NCBI RefSeq assembly: GCF_004103715.1
Contig: NZ_CP035282.1
Location: 3,558,501-3,622,500 of the forward strand
Direction of reading: 5' to 3'
Source of the DNA: Acidilutibacter cellobiosedens
Lineage (GTDB): Bacteria; Bacillota; Clostridia; Tissierellales; Acidilutibacteraceae
Length of the DNA: 64,000 bases
Within the stretch, counting starts at the first letter, position 1; every line of letters begins with the position of its first letter. Shown piece after piece: positions 33,259-50,109 of this stretch. Under the pieces are notes generated by a model. It was not told where the DNA came from and did no database searches. It saw only the letters and a program-made list of their open reading frames with translations. A program made the translations under genes and the position numbers.

Positions 33259-36200
33259 ATGTTTATTGCTGATTTTCATATTCATTCAAAGTATTCAAGA
33301 GCAACAAGTAAAGAATGTATACCTGAAATTCTTGAAATGTGGTCACGACGTAAAGGTATCAATCTCCTTGGAACAGCGGATTTCACACATCCAGTTTGGC
33401 GTGAAGAATTAAAGGAAAAACTCACTCCTTCAGAAGAAGGTCTATATGTTCTTAAAGATGATTATCGCAAAGAAGATAATATTGGAGGAACAGATTTTAA
33501 GCCTCGATTCATTATATCTGGAGAAATCAGCTCAATATACAAAAAAAACGGAAAAGTGAGAAAAATCCACAATCTAATACTTCTCCCCGGATTGGAGGAA
33601 GCTGAATTAATATCTCATCGTCTCGAGGCCATAGGTAATCTACACTCTGATGGAAGACCCATATTAGGTCTTGATAGTAAGGATTTGCTTGAAATTGTAC
33701 TTGATATATGCCCGGAAGCCATATTTATTCCTGCCCATATATGGACTCCTCATTTTTCTTTATACGGTGAGTATTCAGGGTTTGATGATATAAGAGAATG
33801 TTTCAAAGATCTAACGGACAATATCTATGCTGTAGAAACGGGCCTTTCTTCAGATCCCCCCATGAACTGGCGTCTCTCTGCACTTGATAAATTTACTTTA
33901 GTTTCTAATTCAGATGCTCATTCTCCTGCTAATTTGGCCAGAGAAGCTAATATCTTTGATACGGACCTTTCTTATTCAAATATATCACAGGCTTTAAAGA
34001 ACCGAAATACAAAGGAATTTTATGGTACAATAGAATTTTTCCCAGAGGAAGGAAAATATCATTACGATGGACACAGAAATTGTAAAGTATGCTTAAAACC
34101 TGCAGAAACCGAAGCTTTATCGGGTATATGCCCAGTGTGTGGAGGTAGACTTACAGTAGGGGTACTTCATCGAGTTGAAGCCTTGGCAGACAGAGCTGAA
34201 GGGTTCGTCCCTCAGACAGCCAAACACTTTGAAAGCCTCGTTCCCCTTCGGGAAATAATTGCATCTTCATTAGGCTTTACTACTGCCAGCATTAAGGTAA
34301 AAAGAAGGTATGAAAATCTGATACAAACTTTAGGTACTGAATTATTCATCCTTCGGGAAGCATCCTTAAGCGATATAGAATTAGCTGCTGGACCTCATAT
34401 TGCAGAAGGTATTCGCAGGTTGCGAGCTGGGCAAGTGGAAATACATCCCGGTTACGATGGAAAATATGGACAAATTAATGTAATGAACAAGAATGAAATA
34501 AATCTAATTTCCGGCCAAATAAGCCTTTTTAAAAATGAAGATAATAATGACAGGAATAATGATAAAAATAACGATATTCAAAAACAATCTTTAATTAAAA
34601 AAGAAAGGGTTTCGGAACCTTACTCAGCAAGCTCTATTGAACCTCTTCCTTCCAGCAACCCTTACAGATTAAATCAAGAACAATGGGAAGATGTTTCATC
34701 GCCGGAACCTGTAATCGTAGTAATGGCTGGCCCCGGAACGGGAAAGACAAGAACATTGGTATACCGTATAGTATATCTAATTGAAAACTGCGGTATTTCT
34801 CCTTCAGAAATAACCGCCGTTACTTTTACCAATAAAGCTGCTAATGAGATGCGCAGTCGTTTAGAAAAACATTTTAAGAACAAAAACACAGTAAAAGCCA
34901 TGAATATAGGAACATTTCATTCCATATGTCTAAAAATTTTATCTGAAGAAAAAGGGAATGGAAAAACTACAATTATTGATGAATATAATTCAATTTCTAT
35001 AGTTGAAGATATACTGAAAAATCTTCAACTGAAGATCTCCCCACGGGATGCTATGAAGGAAATTTCTCTGATGAAAAGCGGAACAATTTCAGGAGAAGAA
35101 AATAAGAAAGAGCTTAAAATTCCATTGGAAGTATATGATTTATACTGTTCGCAGCTTAAACAGTATGATGTTATGGATTATGATGATATCCTTCTTGAAG
35201 CACTCAAAAAGTTTAAAAATACAAATTTAAGCAATTCTTTCTCCTATCTTTTAGTAGATGAGTTTCAAGATATTAATGAAATTCAGTACCGTTTAATTAA
35301 AGAATGGGCAAGTAATAATATCTTCGTCATAGGGGACCCCGAGCAATCAATTTATGGCTTTAGAGGTTCAGATTTTCGATATTTTGATATATTTAAAGAG
35401 AATTTTCCTCATGCCAAAAATATCAGGCTTACCCAAAATTATCGTTCGACTCCTGAGATCATACATTGTGCCAAATCGGTAATTTCCAAAAAAATAAAGG
35501 GGGAACCTTTTAGTTTTCTGGAATCCAAAAGAGAAAAAGGTACAAAAGTACGACTTCTAAAAACCAATAATGAATTTTCCGAAGCATTGTTTGTCGCTAA
35601 GGAGATTAACCGCATAGTGGGCGGTATTGATATGATAGATACACAGAAGATATCGGAAACTGACAGGAAGAATTCCAAAGTAAAAAATCCAAGAAGCTTT
35701 GCTGACATTGCCATATTATATCGTACTAATCACCAGGAGAATATTATAGAGCAGTGCCTTATAAAAGAAGGCATACCCTACGTAGTTGCAGGAAAAGATG
35801 AGTTTCTTTCAGAAAAGGAAGTTCGTGCCGTAATTGCTTTCTTCCAGTTTTTACTCAATCCAAAGGATATTTTTTCCTTAAAGACATACCTAAAAATATC
35901 AGGCATATATTCAACGGAATTAATTCAAGAAATACTAAAAAATTATGTTTCAGCTAAAAAGAATATACCGTCTCTTATTAAAATAATAGAAAAAGTTCAG
36001 CCGTCTGATGATTTAGTAAAATCTTGGAATTTTATTGAATTACTAAAGAAATATGAACCTTTACTCCATAAAGAAAAACCCGTGAAGCTAATAGATTCTT
36101 GGATTAATGATAATAACCTATCCGGCATAGATTGTCTAAAACTGCTCTTAAATACATCCGTCTTTCACAATAATATGTCCTCCTTTATTCAAACCCTTAT

Positions 36201-36579
36201 ATTAGGGCGTGAAAGTGATATAGTCCGTAGCAGCAGCAAGATTTATTCTTCTGATGCGGTTTCATTAATGACGATACATGGATCAAAGGGCCTTGAGTTT
36301 CCAGTTATATTCATATGTGGAGTAAACGATGGTCTGATTCCTCTGAAAAATTCCGGTCGTGACTTCAATTTAGATGAAGAAAGGCGACTTTTCTATGTAG
36401 GTATGACAAGGGCACAGGATGAACTTATCCTTATAACTTCCCATGATAGGCCGTCTCCCTTTATTTCCGATATACCTGAAGACTCCATTATAAAGGAGAA
36501 TACTTCCACAAACAAACACAGACTGTTTTTTGCAAGAGGAAATTCCTCACTTTTGCAAATTTTTTTCCTCACCCCATAG
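33259..36579 (+). CDS. EndoQ-like PHP nuclease fused to UvrD/PcrA-type helicase, C-terminus replaced by IS21 sequence
   Basis: Residues 1-~265 form a PHP domain of the EndoQ/COG1379 type: ADFHIHSKYSRATSKE, GTADFTHP, ISGEISSIYK, FIPAHIWTPHFSLYG and VSNSDAHSP carry the metal ligands. A four-cysteine zinc ribbon follows (CKVC ... CPVCGG, ~275-300), then GVLHRVEALADR. A low-complexity Asn/Asp-rich linker (~425-445) leads to a UvrD-type helicase: AGPGTGKTRT (~490), VDEFQDINE, GDPEQSIYGFRGSD, QNYRS, TIHGSKGLEF and RRLFYVGMTRAQDEL. EndoQ cleaves DNA 5' of deaminated bases. The native sequence stops at 36523; the codons up to 36579 are read from an inserted IS21. Removing the IS and one 7-bp repeat restores 1100 codons ending SKQLSIFDI. 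Confidence 0.9.
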   Translation: MFIADFHIHSKYSRATSKECIPEILEMWSRRKGINLLGTADFTHPVWREELKEKLTPSEEGLYVLKDDYRKEDNIGGTDFKPRFIISGEISSIYKKNGKVRKIHNLILLPGLEEAELISHRLEAIGNLHSDGRPILGLDSKDLLEIVLDICPEAIFIPAHIWTPHFSLYGEYSGFDDIRECFKDLTDNIYAVETGLSSDPPMNWRLSALDKFTLVSNSDAHSPANLAREANIFDTDLSYSNISQALKNRNTKEFYGTIEFFPEEGKYHYDGHRNCKVCLKPAETEALSGICPVCGGRLTVGVLHRVEALADRAEGFVPQTAKHFESLVPLREIIASSLGFTTASIKVKRRYENLIQTLGTELFILREASLSDIELAAGPHIAEGIRRLRAGQVEIHPGYDGKYGQINVMNKNEINLISGQISLFKNEDNNDRNNDKNNDIQKQSLIKKERVSEPYSASSIEPLPSSNPYRLNQEQWEDVSSPEPVIVVMAGPGTGKTRTLVYRIVYLIENCGISPSEITAVTFTNKAANEMRSRLEKHFKNKNTVKAMNIGTFHSICLKILSEEKGNGKTTIIDEYNSISIVEDILKNLQLKISPRDAMKEISLMKSGTISGEENKKELKIPLEVYDLYCSQLKQYDVMDYDDILLEALKKFKNTNLSNSFSYLLVDEFQDINEIQYRLIKEWASNNIFVIGDPEQSIYGFRGSDFRYFDIFKENFPHAKNIRLTQNYRSTPEIIHCAKSVISKKIKGEPFSFLESKREKGTKVRLLKTNNEFSEALFVAKEINRIVGGIDMIDTQKISETDRKNSKVKNPRSFADIAILYRTNHQENIIEQCLIKEGIPYVVAGKDEFLSEKEVRAVIAFFQFLLNPKDIFSLKTYLKISGIYSTELIQEILKNYVSAKKNIPSLIKIIEKVQPSDDLVKSWNFIELLKKYEPLLHKEKPVKLIDSWINDNNLSGIDCLKLLLNTSVFHNNMSSFIQTLILGRESDIVRSSSKIYSSDAVSLMTIHGSKGLEFPVIFICGVNDGLIPLKNSGRDFNLDEERRLFYVGMTRAQDELILITSHDRPSPFISDIPEDSIIKENTSTNKHRLFFARGNSSLLQIFFLTP
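36517..36523. repeat. Target-site duplication, left copy (CACAGAC)
   Basis: CACAGAC directly precedes the TG end of the IS21 and recurs at 39027-39033 directly after the CA end. Confidence 0.85.
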
Positions 36580-39170: not shown

Positions 39171-39953
39171 TTATTTCTCAGATAGCTTCATTATTTCGTT
39201 CATCATAAATTTACTAAAAGATACTTTAACATCATCCTTTACATTAACTTGACTCATTACCCGATAATCGTTTAAAGCTTCTTTTATCAATAAATGATAT
39301 TTATCATCAATATTTTTTAAGGCCCATTTCCCGCCCTGTTCCTTTGATAAAATTTTATTATCTTGCAAATAAGCCAATACTCTGCATAAATTTAATGTAA
39401 TGTAGGTAGTATTTTTTAATATTTCTTCATCAGCATTTAAAATATCGCCTTTGATGCTGTCAATATAAAAGTCTCTTGAGACTTCTCCAAAAACTTCTTG
39501 AATTGGTTCGCCCCACAGCACAATTCCGCAATTACGTATTACCGTAAAATGGGCTGCTAAATCTTTATCCTTTTTCAGCTCATCCCCACACATCACCATC
39601 TGACTTAACAAATATGTTTTTAACCAATCCTTTGAAAAATGTAATTCATAAGGAGTAGGATATTGAAAATTCAAACAGTACTTTTTCAATACTATACTCA
39701 TTTCTATTCCCTTTGGAGGACAAAAGGGCCAAATCTCCTTCAAACAATTAAGTATTTTTAATTTTGTCGGACTATCAATTTTAGATTATATTACCGCTAT
39801 AAAATCAATGTCGCTTTTTTCTTCATGAAAGCATCCAAATGCTATAGAGCCATGTACATAAATTCCAACCAAATTGTCACCCAAGATAGTTTGATATTCA
39901 CCGTGTATTACCAAATACATGACTACATTATTGATAATAAAATGACTTGACAT
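39171..39953 (-). pseudogene. Aminoglycoside nucleotidyltransferase-like (AadA/DUF4111 type) gene with in-frame TAA
   Basis: From ATG 39953 the frame reads VVMYLVIHGEYQTILGDNLV and GIYVHGSIAFGCFHEEKSDI then DFIAVI, the nucleotidyltransferase active site (G-S-x8-D-x-D pattern). TAA at 39786-39788 interrupts it; the frame continues to KEIWPFCPPKGIEMSIVLKK and the DUF4111 C-terminal domain (RNCGIVLWGEPIQEVFGEVS, LNLCRVLAYLQDNK, GGKWALK). Total 260 codons, the normal length for AadA-like enzymes that adenylylate aminoglycosides. The first ~15 codons overlap one copy of the 24-bp repeated site, so the original N-terminus may have been replaced by integration. Probably inactive. Confidence 0.8.
39901..39924 (+). 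repeat. Site A of a three-copy 24-bp sequence (putative recombinase att-like site)
   Basis: CCGTGTATTACCAAATACAT followed by GACT. It matches site B (42052-42075) at 21 of 24 positions in direct orientation and site C (50172-50195) at 20 of 24 in inverted orientation. It lies in the first codons of the nucleotidyltransferase gene. Confidence 0.5.
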
Positions 39954-40002
39954 TCCTATCAATGTTCTCTCAATCTCAGTCCTTGCTTTACTTTTTACAC
40001 CT

Positions 40003-41952
40003 TTATTCTATAACTTCTTTTATTTTATTATCATTAGGAACTATCTCAACTCCATTTTCAAACCAAATTAACTTAGGTTTGTACTTACCAATTGTAATAG
40101 ATAATCCAAATTTATATTTATACTTTCCAGTACTGTCGGTGAAAACCTGCAATTTTTTTATATCTTCACTAATATCTTGATTCCACCATGTCTTAACTTC
40201 AATTACTAATATGTTATCATCATTATTTCCTCTCTTATGTAAAATTAAATCAGGATATACTCCATTTTCGTGTTCAGGCAACTGTTTTACTTCACCAATA
40301 TTCCTATTATACTCATTATCTAGATTATACTTAGCAAATTCGCTATCAAATCTTAATACTTCCTCTAAATAAATGCCTAAACGAAATACAATTGCCCTCT
40401 TACTAACATGATTTTGACGATTTTCATTTATATTATTTCTTATTAGGTATTCATCTCTTTCATATAACTTATCAAGTGCTTGCAATACCTTTTGTTGCAA
40501 TCTTTCCCTTAAATCCACCTTTTTAATGTATCTTCCCTCTATAACATTTCTTTCAATAGTTTTTAATTCACTACTTTTAATCGATTTTGATTCTTCATCA
40601 AAATACGCCTGGTAAATCTTAAAATCCTTCCTTTTATTTTCAACACATTTTTTTGAAATAATTTCAAGAATTCTCGCTTTGTCTATTTCTGATGTTTCTA
40701 TGCCAAAAATTATTCCTTCTAAACAATCAAAGGGGTATTTTAGGTCTCTACTCTCATTTGAATCATAATCAAAGAACGTATTTTCTATACGTAATCTATA
40801 CTCCTCTTCAAACTCCCATTCTTTTGTTTTTGTATAATAACGTTTATTAAATAGTTCCCAATAGATTTTTCTCCATTCATCTTTATCTCTCTCTATTTTG
40901 TCTAAAACATTGCTCCTTTTATTACCGTCTGTAAACCAATATTTTATTTGATTTCCATTTAATCTCCCAAGCATTTCGAAAAAGTTAATAGTAGTATAAT
41001 TGCTACCATAAACTACCTTTTCTAACTTTGTATTAATATAATATTTATGAACACCATTACTATCAAAACTACACGGTCTTTCAATCGGAATATATGAATC
41101 ATTTTTATCTTCAGTTGTTTTAAAAATCATACATATACCCCTATGTTTATCAGCGTAATTTCCCCACATAGATGAGTTAGAATAATTTCCAGAAAAACAT
41201 GCCATATAACATTGTGGATGAATCAGATTTTCTATCTGTTGTAAATAATTAAATGGGAATTCGTAAAAGAGATAATAAAAATCCATTCTTTTCTCGTTGT
41301 TAGTTATATCTATTAAAACTTTGCCATGTAAAAACATTTCCTCTAATATACTACTAGAAATTTTAAGTAAAACTTCCTTTTTATCTGTTTCGTCAACTTG
41401 AATTCTTAAATATGAATTTAAAAGTTTGTCCATTTGCTCAGAACTTGGTGCATATTTTTCAAAATTACCCCACTCTGATTTTTCCATAAAACCATGCAAA
41501 CAATGGTATTTCATAATTATTTTTAAACCATCATTATGTATTATAGATAAAAATAACCTCAAATCATCTCTTGTAGCCTTAATATTATTATTCCCCAACG
41601 TGGAAATAATCTTGTCAACGGTTGATGATTTAATAAATTCATTGGTTATCTCACGACTTAATTCTTTATATGATTCCGTAGGTAACATACTCTCAACTAA
41701 AAATATAGGAATTTTACGTAATTGCTGTTTTTGGGCTCCTAAACGATACATTGAAAAGGCACTTTCCAGACAAATAATATAATTCTTAAATAATCCTTTC
41801 CATGCAATAATATCACCCTGCCAATACATGTTAATATAACCTTCTAGTGGGTCGTTTAAATCCTCCCTTGGTGAAAAGTGAATTGTTTGATTTTCTAATT
41901 CATGATACTGCTCCAGTATGCTTCTTGCAGATTTAAATCTATACAATAACAT
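40003..41952 (-). CDS. DUF2971 protein with C-terminal PD-(D/E)XK-like nuclease domain (649 aa)
   Basis: The N-terminus LLYRFKSARSILEQYHELEN and TIHFSPREDLNDPLEGYINM, with CYMACFSGNYSNSSMWGNYA then DKHRGICMIFKT near residues 247-278, is the two-part DUF2971 signature. Residues ~530-649 are a separate domain: FRLGIYLEEVLRF, then YPDLILHKRG and, ~15 residues later, LVIEVKTWW, i.e. P-D ... E-x-K as in PD-(D/E)XK nucleases. Between them is a charged region (ELKTIERNVIEGRYIKKVDL). DUF2971 proteins are found in defence islands; the fusion with a restriction-like nuclease suggests an abortive-infection or DNA-cleaving defence protein, but no function is proven. The gene stands alone between two copies of a 24-bp site, near hsdR and a serine recombinase. 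Start ATG has GGGGGGAAAAAG upstream. Confidence 0.8.
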   Translation of the reverse strand: MLLYRFKSARSILEQYHELENQTIHFSPREDLNDPLEGYINMYWQGDIIAWKGLFKNYIICLESAFSMYRLGAQKQQLRKIPIFLVESMLPTESYKELSREITNEFIKSSTVDKIISTLGNNNIKATRDDLRLFLSIIHNDGLKIIMKYHCLHGFMEKSEWGNFEKYAPSSEQMDKLLNSYLRIQVDETDKKEVLLKISSSILEEMFLHGKVLIDITNNEKRMDFYYLFYEFPFNYLQQIENLIHPQCYMACFSGNYSNSSMWGNYADKHRGICMIFKTTEDKNDSYIPIERPCSFDSNGVHKYYINTKLEKVVYGSNYTTINFFEMLGRLNGNQIKYWFTDGNKRSNVLDKIERDKDEWRKIYWELFNKRYYTKTKEWEFEEEYRLRIENTFFDYDSNESRDLKYPFDCLEGIIFGIETSEIDKARILEIISKKCVENKRKDFKIYQAYFDEESKSIKSSELKTIERNVIEGRYIKKVDLRERLQQKVLQALDKLYERDEYLIRNNINENRQNHVSKRAIVFRLGIYLEEVLRFDSEFAKYNLDNEYNRNIGEVKQLPEHENGVYPDLILHKRGNNDDNILVIEVKTWWNQDISEDIKKLQVFTDSTGKYKYKFGLSITIGKYKPKLIWFENGVEIVPNDNKIKEVIE

Positions 41953-42075: not shown

Positions 42076-42095
42076 CTATATTTATTAATTATTTT

Positions 42096-42351
42096 GGCAC
42101 TTATATTGTGCGATTTTTATTATAGCGCTTTTTTGGCACTTATAGTATGAGATTTCTTTAATGTATTAATTTTTGGCACGCATAGTGTGAGATTAAGCGT
42201 TTTTGGCACATAATGTACGATTTCTTAATTTTTATGATTTCTGGCACGTATAGTGTGCGATAAAGTGTTTTTGGCACTTATATTGTGCGAATTAGTTCTT
42301 GGAACTTATGCTGTGCGATTAATGCTTTTGGCGCTTATTTTGTGTTATTCT
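42096..42351. repeat. Array of eight degenerate ~22-bp repeats, each an imperfect dyad
   Basis: Unit GGCACTTATAnTGTGCGATT with conserved GGCAC ... GTGCGA arms. Copies start at 42096, 42135, 42175, 42205, 42243, 42273, 42301 and 42330; spacings 39, 40, 30, 38, 30, 28, 29. Most copies are preceded by TTTT. Each unit has GCAC/GTGC dyad symmetry. Spacers differ in length and sequence, unlike a CRISPR array. The array starts directly at the rlmH remnant's stop codon and ends near site B. Possible roles: transposase-binding repeats at a Tn7-like transposon end, iterons, or a cluster of regulator sites. Confidence 0.8.
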
Positions 42352-42590
42352 ATTTGTGGTAAGGTGCATTGTTAATGATACGGTAAGCCCTGTAAATTTG
42401 TTCATAAATAATAATTAATAATATATTAATATCAATATCCATCCGGGAAATAGATAATACATAGTCTGCTTCGATATCATCCTCACCCAAAAATATAGTA
42501 ATATGACTATTACCACTTACACCTATTTGCGCAACTTTCTCCGCTAATTGTTCTGAAGATAGTTGCTCACCATGTTTATCGATTTTAATT
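42350..42590 (-). pseudogene. rlmH: rlmH C-terminal remnant
   Basis: Reading leftwards, IKIDKHGEQLSSEQLAEKVA, SHITIFLG, ADYVLSISRMD and EQIYRAYRIINNAPYHK with a TAG stop. The last block is the strongly conserved C-terminus of RlmH, the 23S rRNA pseudouridine-1915 methyltransferase (~159 residues). Only about 80 codons remain, a few residues are missing after SHITIFLG, and the region before EQIYRAYRI is diverged. Its 5' part is cut by the IS3 element. As rlmH is essential-like and usually single, this is probably a second copy brought by a mobile element (rlmH is the known integration site of staphylococcal SCC elements). Confidence 0.75.
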
Positions 42591-42690: not shown

Positions 42691-42975
42691 ATGGCTAAAC
42701 AATATGATAAACAATTCAAACTGGATGCAATCCAGTATTATCAGGATCACAAGGATCTTGGCCTTATAGGTTGTGCTGAAAACCTTGGTATCAGCCAGCA
42801 GAGCCTTTCCAGATGGAAGAAGGGACTTGAACAAAGTGGAGAGATTGTGTGCCGTGGCTCCGGGAATTATTCTTCCGACGATGAAAAAGAAATAGCATGT
42901 CTTAAGCGTGAACTTCGTGACACAAAGGATGCCCTTGATGTCTTAAAAAAAGCTATAAGCATTCTGGGAAGATAA
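42691..42975 (+). CDS. IS3 OrfA (helix-turn-helix transposase subunit)
   Basis: 94 residues: KQYDKQFKLDAIQYYQDHKD, CAENLGISQQSLSRWKKGLE (helix-turn-helix) and a C-terminal leucine-zipper-like helix (IACLKRELRDTKDALDVLKK). Start ATG has GAAGGAGGA upstream. The A7 run at 42945-42951 followed by G, near the end of orfA, is the classic slippery sequence for the -1 frameshift producing the OrfAB transposase: the -1 frame reads SYKHSGKITEAIYHEV straight into OrfB. Confidence 0.9.
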   Translation: MAKQYDKQFKLDAIQYYQDHKDLGLIGCAENLGISQQSLSRWKKGLEQSGEIVCRGSGNYSSDDEKEIACLKRELRDTKDALDVLKKAISILGR

Positions 42976-43886
42976 CAGAAGCTATTTATCATGAAGTTTC
43001 TGAAAAGACGGAGGCTGCCAAAAAAGAAAATCGCCGGGTTTCCGTCTCCGGAATGCTGAAAATTTTAGGCGTTTCACGCTCTGGATACCTTGCCTGGCAG
43101 AAACGTGTGCCCTCTGATACACAAAAGCGCAAAGAGGCTGTTAAAGTTAAAATCAAGGATATATACGATGATTCAAAGCAGAATTATGGTGCACCAAAGA
43201 TTACCCAAAAGCTTCAGCAGGAAGGTGAAACCATCTCTGAACGTACCGTAGGCAAATATATGAAGGAAATGGGTATTAAAGCTCAGTAGATAAAGCCATG
43301 GACTGCAACAGCCAAAGATTCCGATTTTAGTACGAAGCTTCATAATATTCTTGATGAGAAATTCAACCCTGACCGTCCAAATGCAGTATGGTACAGCGAT
43401 ATTACTTATATCTGGGCAACAAGAGGATTCGTCTATCTAATAAGCATTATGGATCTATATTCCAGAAAAATCACTGCATGGATGCTTTCAAAAACGATGG
43501 AAGTTTCCTGCGTAATAAATACAATAAACAAAGCTAAAGCGAGGAGAAATACAGACCTGCCACTTATTTTACATAGTGACCGCAGAAGCCAGTATGTTTC
43601 CAATGAATATATAAAAGCTGCTGCTAAAATGCAGAGAAGCTATTCAAAAAAGGCTTTTCCATGGGATAATGCCTGTATTGAATCGTTTCATGCAATAATC
43701 AAACGTGAGTGGCTAAATCGATTTAAAATTCGTAATTATCAACAGGCATACAAGCTTGTATTTGAATATATTGAAGCCTTTTATAATACAAAACGAATTC
43801 ACAGTCATTGCGACTATATGTCACCGGATGATTTCGAGAAGCTGTATGCTAAAGTACAGAATGACAGCTTACTATTAGCTGGTTAA
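42952..43886 (+). pseudogene. IS3 OrfB integrase with in-frame TAG
   Basis: Frame 0 from the slippery A7: VSVSGMLKILGVSRSGYLAW, the HTH_21-like YGAPKITQKLQQEGETISER, then TAG at 43287-43289 just after GIKAQ (usually Tyr or similar), then the rve integrase core: VWYSDITYIWATRGFVYLIS (first Asp), LILHSDRRSQYVS (second Asp; relatives have HSDRGSQY, so Gly to Arg), and CIESFHAIIKREWLN (Glu). A stop and a change in a conserved Gly make it unlikely to be active. Confidence 0.85.
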
Positions 43887-43930
43887 TATGAGGATATTTT
43901 TCTCATTTTAATTTGTACTAAATCTTGACA

Positions 43931-46142
43931 TATGACCAATACTTCCCTCGCACTCTCGCCATACTTTGTAAAATAGTTTTTTTTCATTACATTATTAGCC
44001 CTTTCTCTTCTTGTGAGAGGAGGCATGTCAAAGGCTATGTGGCAAATCAAATCAAAGGGGTCTAAATCTTTTCCTACCTCATCTTTCAGTTCTTCAAAAA
44101 ATACTCCTCGTTCTTCTAATTCCTTTATGATTGCCTCTTTTCTATCTTGCTTCATTCCATTTTCTAAGGAATTCATCAAGGGTTTTAAATTCATTTTTTA
44201 AGTTTTTCCTGGTGTAGGAAACCAGTGATTCAGTTATCAATTTGCCATTTTTATCGTAATAATAAACCCTCTCATGTATTACCTTTACAGGAACATCATC
44301 TACATAGTACTTGGCCGGAGTTTCATTTATATTCCCGCCCTCTATAATATCGTGAGGAATATCACCTTTGTTACCATCTTCAGTATTATAGTCCTCGTCT
44401 GGTTTTCCTACTCCACCTATACCTTCTTCCTCGTCTTCTGTAGGAATGTCTCCTTTCGTAGTTTTAACGCTTACAGGGTCTCCATCGAAGTCTGGGTCTG
44501 CAAATAATTTAGTAACTCCTCTGAAGTCTATAATGGTAAAATATTGCTTTCCATAATCTTCTCTTATTCTTGTACCCCTACCTATGATTTGTTTGAATTC
44601 AATCATACTATTGATATTAGCATCTAATACAATGAACTGGCAAGTCTGAGCATCTACTCCAGTTGTCATTAGTTTGCTTGTTGTAACCAAAACAGGGTAT
44701 TTGCTTGCAGGGTCAATAAAATTATCCAGTTCAGCCTTTCCTTCTTCGTTATCCCCTGTAATTCTCATGACATATTTGGGATTCTCCGCTACTAAATCCG
44801 CATTTTCATTGACAAGTGCCTGTCTCATTCTTTCAGCATGCTCAATATCTACACAAAAGAAAATTGTCTTTGCAAACCTGGAATTATTCTTTTTTAAGTA
44901 ATCAGACACTTTTTTGGCAACAATCTCTGTCCGGTTTTCAATGACTAAGTTTTTATCAAAATCCTTTATATTATATTCTCTATCTTCAATTTCAAAGCCA
45001 TACTTGTCCCTTTTCCCTTTTTCGGGCCTATAACCTTCTACATCTCTATCCAATATTACTCTTATAACCTTGTATGGAGCAAGGAAACCATCTTCGATTC
45101 CCTGCTTTAATGAGTAGACGTAAATAGGTTCACCAAAGTATTCTATATTAGACACGTCCTTTGTTTCCTTAGGTGTTGCCGTAAGCCCTATTTGGGTGGC
45201 AGGAGAAAAGTATTCCAAAATTTCCCTCCAGGCGGAATCCTCTTTGGCACTTCCTCTATGGCACTCGTCAATAATAACTAAATCAAAAAAGTCTGGTGAG
45301 AATTGCTTATATACATTTTTAAATTCATTTTCACCTGAAATTCCTTGATATAGTGCCAAATAAATTTCATGGGCTTTATCTATCTTTCTGTTAGTGATTT
45401 TCGTCATTTTATCGCCGAAATATTTAAAATCATTTGCCATCGTCTGGTCTACCAATATATTTCTATCGGCTAAAAATAGGATTCTCTTTTTAGCCCTTGA
45501 TTTCCAAAGCCTATAGATAATTTGGAAGGCTGTATAAGTTTTCCCAGTACCAGTAGCCATAACAAGCAGAATTCGCTTTTGTCCTTTGGCAATCGCCTCT
45601 ATCGTTCTGTTTATAGCAATTCGCTGGTAATATCTAGGAGTCTTTCCATCTTGCTCAAAATAATATTCCTGTGTAACGATTGCTTCTTCTTTCTCAGTGA
45701 TTCCTTTTGCACTTTTATATCTATTCCACAATTCCTCAGGAGATGGGAACCGGTTAAGAGGTATTTCTCTTTCTTTTTTCCCTTCTTTAATAGTTCTGTC
45801 GTGTTCTAAAAATGCATCTCCATTACTTGAAAAGGCAAAAGGAATATCCAGTATTTCAGCGTAATCCAATGCTTGCTGCATACCAGCCCCTACTGGATGC
45901 TTATTGTCTTTTGCTTCTATGATAGCAAGAGGTATATTGGATTTATAATATAGTATATAATCTGCTCTTTTCCTTTCTCCTCTTGTAACCAATTTTTTTC
46001 TGACGATAATTCTTCCGTCGGTAAAGGTAACTTCTTCTCTAATTTGTCTTTCTAAATCCCATCCTGCATTTATTAAAGCGGGGGTTATGTATTTAGAACA
46101 TATATCCCTTTCAGATAAATCCTTCTTGTTCACCAATATCAC
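43931..46142 (-). pseudogene. hsdR: Type I restriction enzyme R subunit (HsdR), frameshifted and truncated
   Basis: Residues ~1-120 hold the nuclease domain ([20 protein letters not shown]), followed by a superfamily-2 motor: [29 protein letters not shown], and helicase C motifs ([25 protein letters not shown]). The C-terminal EcoEI-R-type domain begins [18 protein letters not shown], then a TAG arises from one extra base near 44144; the following frame continues [20 protein letters not shown] and [20 protein letters not shown] before being cut by the IS3 at ~43931. The R subunit needs HsdM and HsdS, which are absent here, so it is an orphan remnant of a type I restriction system. Confidence 0.9.
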
Positions 46143-47986: not shown

Positions 47987-50109
47987 TTAGGTAAGAGCAT
48001 TTTTATTTTGCAGTATTTTTTTTAAGAAATACTTAAATTTAAATTCCTCATATGTTTTATCAACATCTTGCATCACTTCATCAAGTGTCTTTTCTGACAC
48101 TTGCCCGGTTTTCTCAAAACTTTCATCAATAAATTGTTCTATGAACTCATCATTAAATTTATCTATAGCAGCATCCATTTCTTCAAAATACTGTTTAAAT
48201 TTTACACTATGATTATGTTTTTGAGTTTCTGCTATATATTCTTCAGCATCTCCAAAATATCTTTCTAGCAAATTAAGTTCCTGCCGACCTTTAGTTTTAA
48301 GATACTCGTTAAACTCATGGAAATCCTGTACACCCAAAATTTTACATAATCCATATACACTGCTGTATTGATTATATATAACTTCTTTCAGTCTTAGCCG
48401 TTTAGGGCCAAATTTCGCATTTGAAATAGTATCTATTACAATTTTGCTGTAAATCTTTTCAAGCAACTCTCTTTTTTGTAGAAGAGTTAAAGAATGAAAA
48501 TATTCTTCTATATTCTCAAAGTCCTCCTGCTCTTTTGCTTCTGAAAGTAATGCTTCTCTTCGTCTTTCTGCTTGTAGTATCTTTTTTTGTTGTTCTTCCT
48601 TTAATTTTTTAACTTTTTCTATTTCTTTTTCTGTATCTTTTATCATCTTTTCTATACGATTGTATTTTAAAGAACCTATTTCTTCCTCTAACTGTCTATC
48701 TATTAGATTATCCAGCCTTGTAAGAAGCCTACTTTCATTTTTCTCAAGATTTTTGATTTCGTCTTTAATTTTGCCTACTTCTGCATCATAAAGCATTTCT
48801 TCTTTTGTTCCATTTCTTTCTTTTAAGTAGTTTTGATACTCTTTAACAAGTAAAAAAGCCTCTTTCAGCCTTTTGAAGAAATCTTCTTTAATCAGGTTGA
48901 ATACTCTTTCCTCTTGAACGCTATAGTATCCATCACAATAATCTTTTCCTGCGTTGAATGTACTGCATTTGTAATACACTTTCGCAGGTTTTCTTGTACC
49001 GTCAGCCAATATGGGAGATGGTTGTAAACTTGAAGTCATTTTACCACCACAATTCGGACAGTGAAGTATATTTATAAACATCTTTTTATGTGCATCAAAA
49101 TATTCCTGTTTTGTAATTGCAGACATTGCTTCTGCCATGTCCAAGTTTTTTCGTATTTTTCTTCTATCACGCAATCTTTCAAGTGTTTGTAAAAAGAATT
49201 CTTCTGTTATAATAGGTTCATGATTGCCGACTGGTAAGTCATGTAAATCTATATCATAGATAGTTGTTTTTTCCCAAATTCTTACGCCTGCATCTGTCTT
49301 TTTCTTTTGTTTTCTCTTAGCCCAAAACAATCGCCCACAATACAAAGGGTTCTCCAGAATTTTTTGGACAGTAGCAGTTGCAAATTGTTTACCTTGCCTT
49401 GTTCGATAGCCATTGAGATTAAGGTATTGTGCAACATTTTTTATACTGTGTTTCTCATCTGTAAAGAGATGAAATATAAGTTCTATAATTTGTTTTTCAT
49501 TTTCATCTATTACTAATCGTTTTTTTATATCCTTCTTTTTTGTTTTTTTATCTTGTTTGAAATCATTATTTTCTTGTTGACTTGTAGAATAAAATTCGTA
49601 TCGATAACCATGCGGTGCGGGGCCACCAAAGTAGTTTCCGGCCTGCACTGATTTTTCTAAACCAGCCTTAACACGTTCTCTCAACTGGTCGATGAAAAGT
49701 TCATTTAACATACTATATATGCTAACCATTATCTTGGCATTTTGAGAATTTATATCCCCATGAATGCCCCATCACAAGTAAACAAACGCAAATTATTCTC
49801 TTTGAGAAGTTTGAAAATCTCTAAAGTGTGACTAATAGAACGGCTTATACGGGATAAATCATAGCAACAAACGCCTTCAATATTGTTATCAGGTTCCTGC
49901 AGTCGTTTTAATAATTCTTTTAATTCGTCTCTTTCTTCAATTGTTATGCCAGAAATTCCTGCGTCACAATAATAAACAAAATCCTCTCTTTTGTAACCTT
50001 GTGATATAAGCAAGGCTTCACATCGTTCTTTTTGCACAGCAAGTGAATATCTATCCTCACTTGCTTGCTTCTCTGATGAAACTCTTGGGTAAATTGCTAT
50101 CTTACCCAT
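47987..50109 (-). pseudogene. Large serine recombinase with a one-base frameshift
   Basis: The N-terminal frame (50109-49750) is a resolvase domain: IAIYPRVSSEKQASEDRYSL (catalytic Ser near residue 11), DAGISGITIEERDELKELLK and CYDLSRISRS. After GAFMG the frame is lost at a G4 run (plus-strand CCCC 49756-49759); five Gs would give GAFMGDINSQNAKIMVSIYS and continue in the frame ending at 47987. That part has the Recombinase domain (GLEKSVQAGNYFGGPAPHGY), a zinc ribbon (LHCPNCGGKM ... CSTFNAGKDYCDG) and a long coiled coil (~residues 400-480). It is of integrase type, ~706 residues in all. Promoter-proximal to it lies att-like site C. Confidence 0.88.

Follow-up and report, generated by a model that had tools for sequence, protein, structure and literature searches.

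The stretch of DNA analysed here, referred to below as the window, comprises 64,000 nucleotides of the Acidilutibacter cellobiosedens genome (contig NZ_CP035282.1, positions 3,558,501 to 3,622,500). In this work, we focus on one of its genes, located at 40003-41952 on the minus strand, which is a fusion of two domains: a long form of DUF2971 and a PD-(D/E)XK nuclease domain of the PD-lambda-3 type. The gene is a single uninterrupted open reading frame (ORF) of 649 codons that retains the conserved residues of both halves, as judged from the ORF listing and from matches to Pfam, PADLOC and PHROGs. The long DUF2971 domain occupies residues 1-470 (40543-41952, minus strand) and is predicted to adopt an ADP-ribosyltransferase (ART) fold, on the basis of a structure model, a match to phrog_1762, 21 relatives from IMG/VR, profile comparison by hhalign and the fold of a homologue. 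Within it lie a helical insert of about 195 residues that is common to the long subfamily (residues 48-243; 41224-41811, minus strand), whose model helices run from 48-70 to 220-243 and which is missing from short DUF2971s (alignment A8), and a putative catalytic E-x-E motif (E382-x-E384; 40801-40809, minus strand) that is followed by R386. The nuclease domain occupies residues 487-640 (40033-40494, minus strand), is assigned to the PD-lambda-3 component-A family by PADLOC model PDLC03986 and alignment A2, and contains the motif P567-D568 ... E585-x-K587 (40192-40254, minus strand). Our reading, which we hold with about even confidence, is that the gene product is a single-chain anti-phage enzyme, probably of the abortive kind, composed of an ART-fold DUF2971 half and a PD-lambda-3-type nuclease half. 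As far as the open literature shows, the combination and the fold assignment appear to be new, while the parts belong to known kinds.

The sequence-only reading that this analysis followed up had described a clear N-terminal DUF2971 signature. The family kinship stands, although the signature itself is neither clear nor N-terminal: the Pfam model (PF11185) matches only residues 262-387, in the middle of the protein, with 21.0 bits (E 8.7e-4), which is below the gathering cut-off of 22 bits. The same half is matched by phrog_1762 of PHROGs (E 3e-31) and by the PDC-S31 models of PADLOC, three of them at E <= 3e-15 (best 2e-17) and a fourth at 6e-4. PDC-S31 is matched by each of the 21 sequences in the long alignment (the window protein and 20 relatives), and PF11185 at E <= 1 by each of the 61 short relatives. 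When the profile of the long DUF2971s (n = 21) is compared with that of the short ones (n = 61), hhalign gives a probability of 99.8 and an E value of 1.2e-27 over 156 columns; judged by such profile comparisons, the N-terminal half surely belongs to the DUF2971 family.

The residues N33, D34, W263, Y266, K375, W379, E382, E384, R386 and G417 are invariant in 21/21 long sequences, and the matching N-D, W..Y, K, W, E-x-E, R and G show no variation among the short ones (61/61). The putative E-x-E active site is therefore common to all 82 sequences (61 short and 21 long), and strand 384-390 of the window model begins at E384. In ARTs, the catalytic Glu belongs to an (E/Q)-x-E-like motif where a late strand begins (...QAE(F/L)L... 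in DarT, ...NEYIV... in PARP), and we take E382-x-E384 to be this motif. The DarT profile has AE at the place of the catalytic Glu; the aligned PDB chains 8baq and 7omu have AA there, as if the Glu had been mutated for crystallisation.

For the fold comparison, a short DUF2971 was modelled using an alignment of 61 sequences. This homologue, L042, has 284 aa and comes from the viral contig IMGVR_UViG_3300034139_000017; its model has pLDDT 91.3 and pTM 0.87. VIA-align was then used to realign 545 Foldseek candidates from the PDB, and the best 50 of the 545 were listed. Among the matches listed, rows 1-21, 23 and 24 are ART-fold proteins, including some counted as ARTs although their entry titles do not say so. 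The top row is Tpt1 (7yw4; Z 8.8, root-mean-square deviation (rmsd) 3.0, 114/120 residues aligned); seven DarT entries have Z 6.1-7.5, and pertussis S1, SopF, the Chromobacterium effector CteC and PARP1 are also present. The first unrelated fold, adseverin, appears at row 22 with Z 3.5, and rows 23-24 are PARP1 and diphtheria toxin. In the window protein's own model, residues 1-470 mostly have pLDDT near 90, falling to 63-80 within some stretches of the insert, and the only row that uses the confident part, among the 50 matches listed, is DarT1 with NAD+ (8baq; Z 5.7, rmsd 3.8, 139 residues aligned). The assignment is made because the list of L042 is uniform, not because of the single Z of 8.8. 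We consider the model-based case for an ART-like fold in DUF2971 to be moderate to strong, bearing on the fold and not on catalysis, and the window domain probably shares the fold of L042.

A sequence route to the ART link was also tried and was dropped, the hhalign comparison with DarT being at chance level, and we draw no support from sequence. When PDB sequences were searched by phmmer and hmmsearch, neither the window protein nor the long alignment brought up anything relevant; Pfam PF14487 (DarT) matched neither the window protein nor any of the 61 short DUF2971s at E <= 1. The DUF2971 model, searched against BFVD, had no significant match.

In the C-terminal half, the nuclease motif YPDLI ... 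VIEVK that had been pointed out from the sequence is indeed present, and provides D568, E585 and K587. These residues, together with D545, E547, R550, K556, P567, H572, N580, D597 and K600, are invariant in all eight aligned C-terminal domains, that of the window included. The PADLOC model PD-Lambda-3_A (PDLC03986, 159 positions) matches residues 487-623 with an E value of 9e-11. When the eight domain sequences are compared with Pfam, 11 families match, all weakly, and seven of the 11 (Mrr_cat, VRR_NUC, XcyI, BsuBI_PstI, TnsA, PDDEXK_9 and HSDR_N_2) are restriction-type or PD-(D/E)XK-like nucleases. A profile search of the PDB with the nuclease alignment found nothing relevant, and no relative of the C-terminal domain could be confirmed in IMG/VR. 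By motif and profile, a C-terminal PD-(D/E)XK nuclease is supported.

All homologues examined carry one half only. An IMG/VR search with the alignment of the N-terminal half found 27 loci, of which 21 (L019-L039) match the half over almost its full length. The ORFs of these loci measure 463-524 aa and 21/21 end before the nuclease region; in addition, a nuclease hidden Markov model (HMM) detected no nuclease gene in the DNA around the long IMG/VR loci. The set contains the near-duplicates L022/L023 and L036/L039, of which L023 was excluded from alignment A3 and L039 was kept. At one locus (L026:4896-7437), two DUF2971 genes, of 347 aa and, in the long form, 482 aa, stand in tandem. With four short DUF2971 members as queries, relatives were found in IMG/VR at 145 places, and a pattern search of genome contigs gave two short DUF2971 loci only. 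For the nuclease half, 19 loci were located. Plasmids, several genomes and one phage contig are among the places where it forms a stand-alone gene, about 140-210 aa long; some of the relatives in other genomes are interrupted by stops.

The search for other fusions was negative throughout. Of 72,556 plasmid records, 10 match the N-terminal half (one in part) and 10 the C-terminal half; none matches both, and none of the 20 has a match covering 80%. Among 50,697 phage records there is one match, which is not a fusion. No other fusion was found in 249 genomes of the order, with at most four candidates scored per genome, or in 398 genomes of the phylum, with at most three; in these two sets, both halves stand in one frame only in the window's genome. 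A further 391 genomes of the class were searched with the N-terminal alignment only.

Two nuclease relatives deserve a separate mention. The same genome contains a second, stand-alone PD-lambda-3 A-type nuclease (L002, G000:C1:2139730-2140152), apparently short at its N-terminus, which lies near a small gene pair that resembles a toxin-antitoxin pair by eye. In L176:991-1914 (minus strand), a PD-lambda-3 A-type nuclease is followed in frame by what looks by eye like an acetyltransferase domain, and because of this joining the nuclease module appears able to fuse.

The separate occurrence of the halves bears on the sensor-plus-nuclease architecture that the sequence-only reading had guessed. 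Its nuclease part is supported by sequence (PADLOC E 9e-11). Its sensor part is not supported, as the DUF2971 domain looks like an ART-fold enzyme with an invariant putative active site. A sensor could still be accommodated if the ART-like DUF2971 half were catalytically silent and bound NAD+, ADP-ribose or a phage product, leaving the nuclease as the sole effector. The helical insert could serve as such a sensor and the nuclease relatives do exist as stand-alone small proteins, and PD-lambda-3 is itself listed with a PD(D/E)XK domain (PMC10952713); against this, the long DUF2971s of IMG/VR occur without a nuclease, both in their 21 ORFs and in the surrounding DNA, and the invariant E-x-E, K, W, N-D and W..Y suit an enzyme. 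We regard the explanation as somewhat unlikely.

Both halves also turn up on their own, in a few restriction operons and in mobile DNA. In an Arcobacter plasmid (L009), the gene order is hsdM - HsdS-like ORF - DUF2971 - Fic - hsdR, where the HsdS-like ORF (403 aa, annotated as hypothetical) weakly resembles annotated HsdS (E 5e-4). In a genome of the same class as the window (L048), a 391-aa DUF2971 ORF overlaps an HsdS-like ORF by 4 bases. Two IMG/VR loci that are 96% identical (L080 and L081) have the order DUF2971 - second ORF - EcoAI-type hsdR, and the hsdR of L080 resembles that of the window (E 8e-201); in L076, an hsdM-like ORF comes after DUF2971. In L018 and L174, the nuclease alone is flanked by hsdM and hsdS, and the presumed HsdS proteins of L018 and L048 resemble that of L174 (E 1e-7 and 1e-10, respectively). 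At L080:1-1869, the short DUF2971 gene directly abuts a SIR2-like ORF (recognised by eye from GAGFSRNWGG) upstream of hsdR, which is possibly an ART and NADase pair in a restriction locus. With these contexts and the PDC-S31 matches of the long alignment, a defence role is plausible.

In IMG/VR, long DUF2971s often adjoin phage baseplate genes: among 98 neighbours, 12 match phrog_2258 and 7 match phrog_4011 (the 98 remain from the 121 neighbours of 23 loci after 23, for the most part the shortest, were removed; loci L023 and L039 did not contribute). This context would suit a cargo enzyme of prophages or plasmids that serves no defence and instead modifies host or rival targets, as in superinfection exclusion, anti-restriction or host takeover, and AcrIF11 is an ART that is reported to disable CRISPR (PMC12421852). 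Note, however, that IMG/VR is a collection selected for phage DNA, so that the baseplate context is biased, and that both the embedding in restriction operons and the joining with a nuclease of PD-lambda-3 type speak for defence; we consider a cargo role distinctly unlikely.

For the single-chain anti-phage enzyme that we prefer, we infer catalysis, substrates, activation and defence as follows. The DUF2971 half would be an NAD+-using, ART-fold domain similar to DarT and Tpt1, which the helical insert may keep inactive, or the insert may sense infection. On infection, the target of ADP-ribosylation by the DUF2971 domain would be a macromolecule, most likely nucleic acid, while the C-terminal nuclease would cut DNA; together these activities would stop phage replication, and the infected cell would probably be killed or arrested. 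The relatives in type I loci may act when a phage disables restriction, by analogy with embedded toxins. Any such link to restriction would have been lost in this genome, because the neighbouring hsdR is broken. A broader proposal, which we put forward only tentatively and with less than even confidence, is that DUF2971, a widespread family carried by prophages and plasmids, is an unrecognised ART branch of DarT-like effectors found at times in restriction loci, and that the window fusion combines ADP-ribosylation with cleavage of nucleic acid when the cell is infected.

Several observations weigh against the anti-phage enzyme. Only one genome is known to carry the fusion, there in a decayed neighbourhood, and the fold model of the C-terminal part has pLDDT < 50 for residues 503-649. 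The fold test used a homologue that lacks the insert rather than the window's domain alone, and its top Z of 8.8 is barely above the best value that VIA-align typically gives for models without a clear match (7-8). Foldseek against the PDB returned no match at E <= 0.001 for either the window model or the L042 model; for L042, the first ART stands at rank 35 (E 4.4) among the 50 listed, and the best rows are unrelated. In hhalign, the short DUF2971s score 13.8 against a DarT-like profile, compared with a mean of 13.6 and a maximum of 19.9 in 60 shuffles and with 14.1 in a reversed control. The long DUF2971s score 19.5 against the DarT profile (probability 0.3) over an unrelated-looking stretch, for a set that had no shuffle control. 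The DarT-like alignment comprises 9 sequences out of 16 loci; L155 was included without its N-terminus, and L157 and L161 (ORF not DarT-like), L165 (judged divergent) and L167-L170 (with an ORF that was partial, weak or wrong) were left out. The only DarT HMM matches (E 0.0016 and 0.0025) are those of the window sequence, compared with 0/20 for the rest of the long alignment. ART motif I is His or Arg. The corresponding place is K in 52/61 short forms and R in 7/61, while in the long forms it is R5 in 20/21. Finally, the neighbourhoods of homologues, which the sequence-only reading had proposed to survey, do include DUF2971s and nucleases in or beside type I operons, although their share is small: Hsd genes lie near 2/26 long DUF2971 loci (embedded in L009, about 2 kb away in L011), 2/19 nuclease loci and 3/80 short-DUF2971 loci (from the search that gave the 145 places), as found by phmmer with eight Hsd queries in flanks that were often only 1.5-3 kb long.

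The neighbourhood of the gene in the window is decayed mobile DNA and not an intact setting: several of the surrounding genes are broken or partial. The orphan hsdR and the serine recombinase described beside the gene are both there, in damaged form. The hsdR, of EcoAI type (43883-46142, minus strand; NF046051, E 0), is frameshifted and truncated: its two ORFs, 44142-46142 and 43883-44194, are in different frames, the first covering positions 1-640 of the 768 of NF046051 and the second matching EcoEI_R_C, and they end where an IS3-like element starts. The large serine recombinase (47987-50109, minus strand; Pfam Resolvase, Recombinase and Zn_ribbon_recom) is split into two ORFs. The element at 42691-43886 (plus strand), whose family we take to be IS3-like, is degenerate and consists of a helix-turn-helix-like ORF and a transposase fragment, as judged from its ORFs and sequence. 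No hsdM or hsdS was found among the 10 window proteins scanned with Pfam, the remaining ORFs of the island not all having been scanned. An IS21-type istAB pair is also nearby, and the ORF at 33259-36579, which by eye fuses a PHP-like N-terminus to a UvrD/PcrA-like helicase, abuts the IS21-type element at its end. At 39171-39743 (minus strand) there is the C-terminal part only of an aadA-like nucleotidyltransferase, matched by AadA-type profiles from about position 77.

Upstream of the fusion gene lies a C-terminal fragment of RlmH (42350-42586, minus strand; 78 aa; PDB 1to0, E 4.5e-8) that is foreign to the genome's own rlmH, an intact gene about 79 kb away to which it is 36% identical. The 3' end of rlmH is the landing site of staphylococcal cassette chromosome (SCC) elements, which use large serine recombinases. 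The foreign rlmH 3' fragment and the broken large serine recombinase thus suggest the remains of an SCC-like cassette, although a second copy of the 15-base end is absent from the window at <= 2 mismatches.

Given such surroundings, the gene could be a relic in decaying mobile DNA that no longer functions. The hsdR, the serine recombinase, the IS3-like element, the aadA-like gene and the rlmH fragment are all broken or partial, some nuclease-half relatives carry stops in other genomes, and the G+C content of 0.277 at 40000-41499 is the lowest among the 1.5-kb steps of 30000-55499 (the other steps have 0.28-0.38). The gene itself, however, has 649 open codons and keeps the conserved residues of both halves, and we judge the relic explanation to be very improbable.

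The direct repeats of about 24 bp that were said to bracket the gene are real, although they form an upstream array only. The imperfect array found by repeat searches (core GGCACNTATANTGTGC) lies at 42092-42357 (plus strand) and ends at the stop codon of the RlmH fragment. The repeats (TTTTGGCACTTATANTGTGCGAT) are not due to chance: an 18-base core has seven matches in the window at <= 3 mismatches, compared with 0.2 expected; 6/7 matches are at 42096-42318, upstream of the gene, and none is downstream. In its 23-base form, with <= 2 mismatches, there are five matches genome-wide, all inside the array. The core is imperfectly palindromic (GGCAC-N6-TGTGC). No match at <= 1 mismatch was found in 248 other genomes of the order, and blastn of the array against the 72,556 plasmid records gave one 26-base match (E 4). 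Transposon brackets were considered and rejected because the array is one-sided; it may instead represent the end of an insertion sequence or, as in the RptR case, an array of operators.

Pfam still lists DUF2971 under 'unknown function', and PADLOC gives no description of it. In the open-access literature, which was the scope of our search (subscription papers and preprints being outside it), DUF2971 is named in one paper only, a genome re-annotation, and there is no mention of PF11185 or PDC-S31. The PDCs of PADLOC are putative candidates chosen by 'guilt-by-embedding' in known defence systems, according to PMC12988326, which cites Payne et al. 2024. The fusion suggests a function for the DUF2971 family, and it physically ties the domain to the nuclease family of a proven anti-phage system. 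If the domain is indeed an NAD+-using ART, the invariant E-x-E would offer an immediate test for many prophage and plasmid genes.

Compared with known systems, the locus differs from type I restriction-modification in that the window proteins scanned include no intact set of hsdR, hsdM and hsdS, the hsdR being broken. With DUF2971 (PF11185) and PDC-S31, the N-terminal half shares the family, by profile comparison, and the invariant residues; it differs in the insert, which is a property of the long subfamily, and in the C-terminal nuclease, which is present in 0/21 long IMG/VR relatives. With component A of PD-lambda-3 (Vassallo et al. 2022), the likeness consists in the PADLOC match of the nuclease domain. 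PD-lambda-3 is described as an abortive infection system (PMC13190303) and is attributed to the E. coli screen of PMC9519451. A stand-alone relative (L014, 160 aa) matches the PADLOC model nearly end to end, whereas the window's domain is fused to DUF2971 and has no recognised partner gene beside it; four genes beside the stand-alone relatives L014-L017 likewise have no PADLOC match at E <= 0.01. The tRNA 2'-phosphotransferase Tpt1/KptA is the best structural match to L042, yet it is absent from the Pfam matches of the 61 short DUF2971s at E <= 1, and its conserved residues presumably differ from those of DUF2971. From DarTG2, a toxin-antitoxin system that ADP-ribosylates DNA and lies in a type I restriction locus, the window gene differs in three respects: DUF2971 has no detectable sequence kinship to DarT, no macrodomain antitoxin (DarG) is present among the nine neighbour ORFs scanned with Pfam, and the protein has a fused nuclease. 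On the other hand, the modelled DUF2971 homologue is predicted to share the ART fold of the DarT entries, and the hsdS-[X]-hsdR position of E. coli DarTG2 is the same in the relative L009. According to PMC12255303, the island that carries DarTG2 between hsdS and hsdR defends against phage and is controlled by a repressor whose binding sites are three direct repeats, and direct repeats lie upstream there as they do at the window gene.

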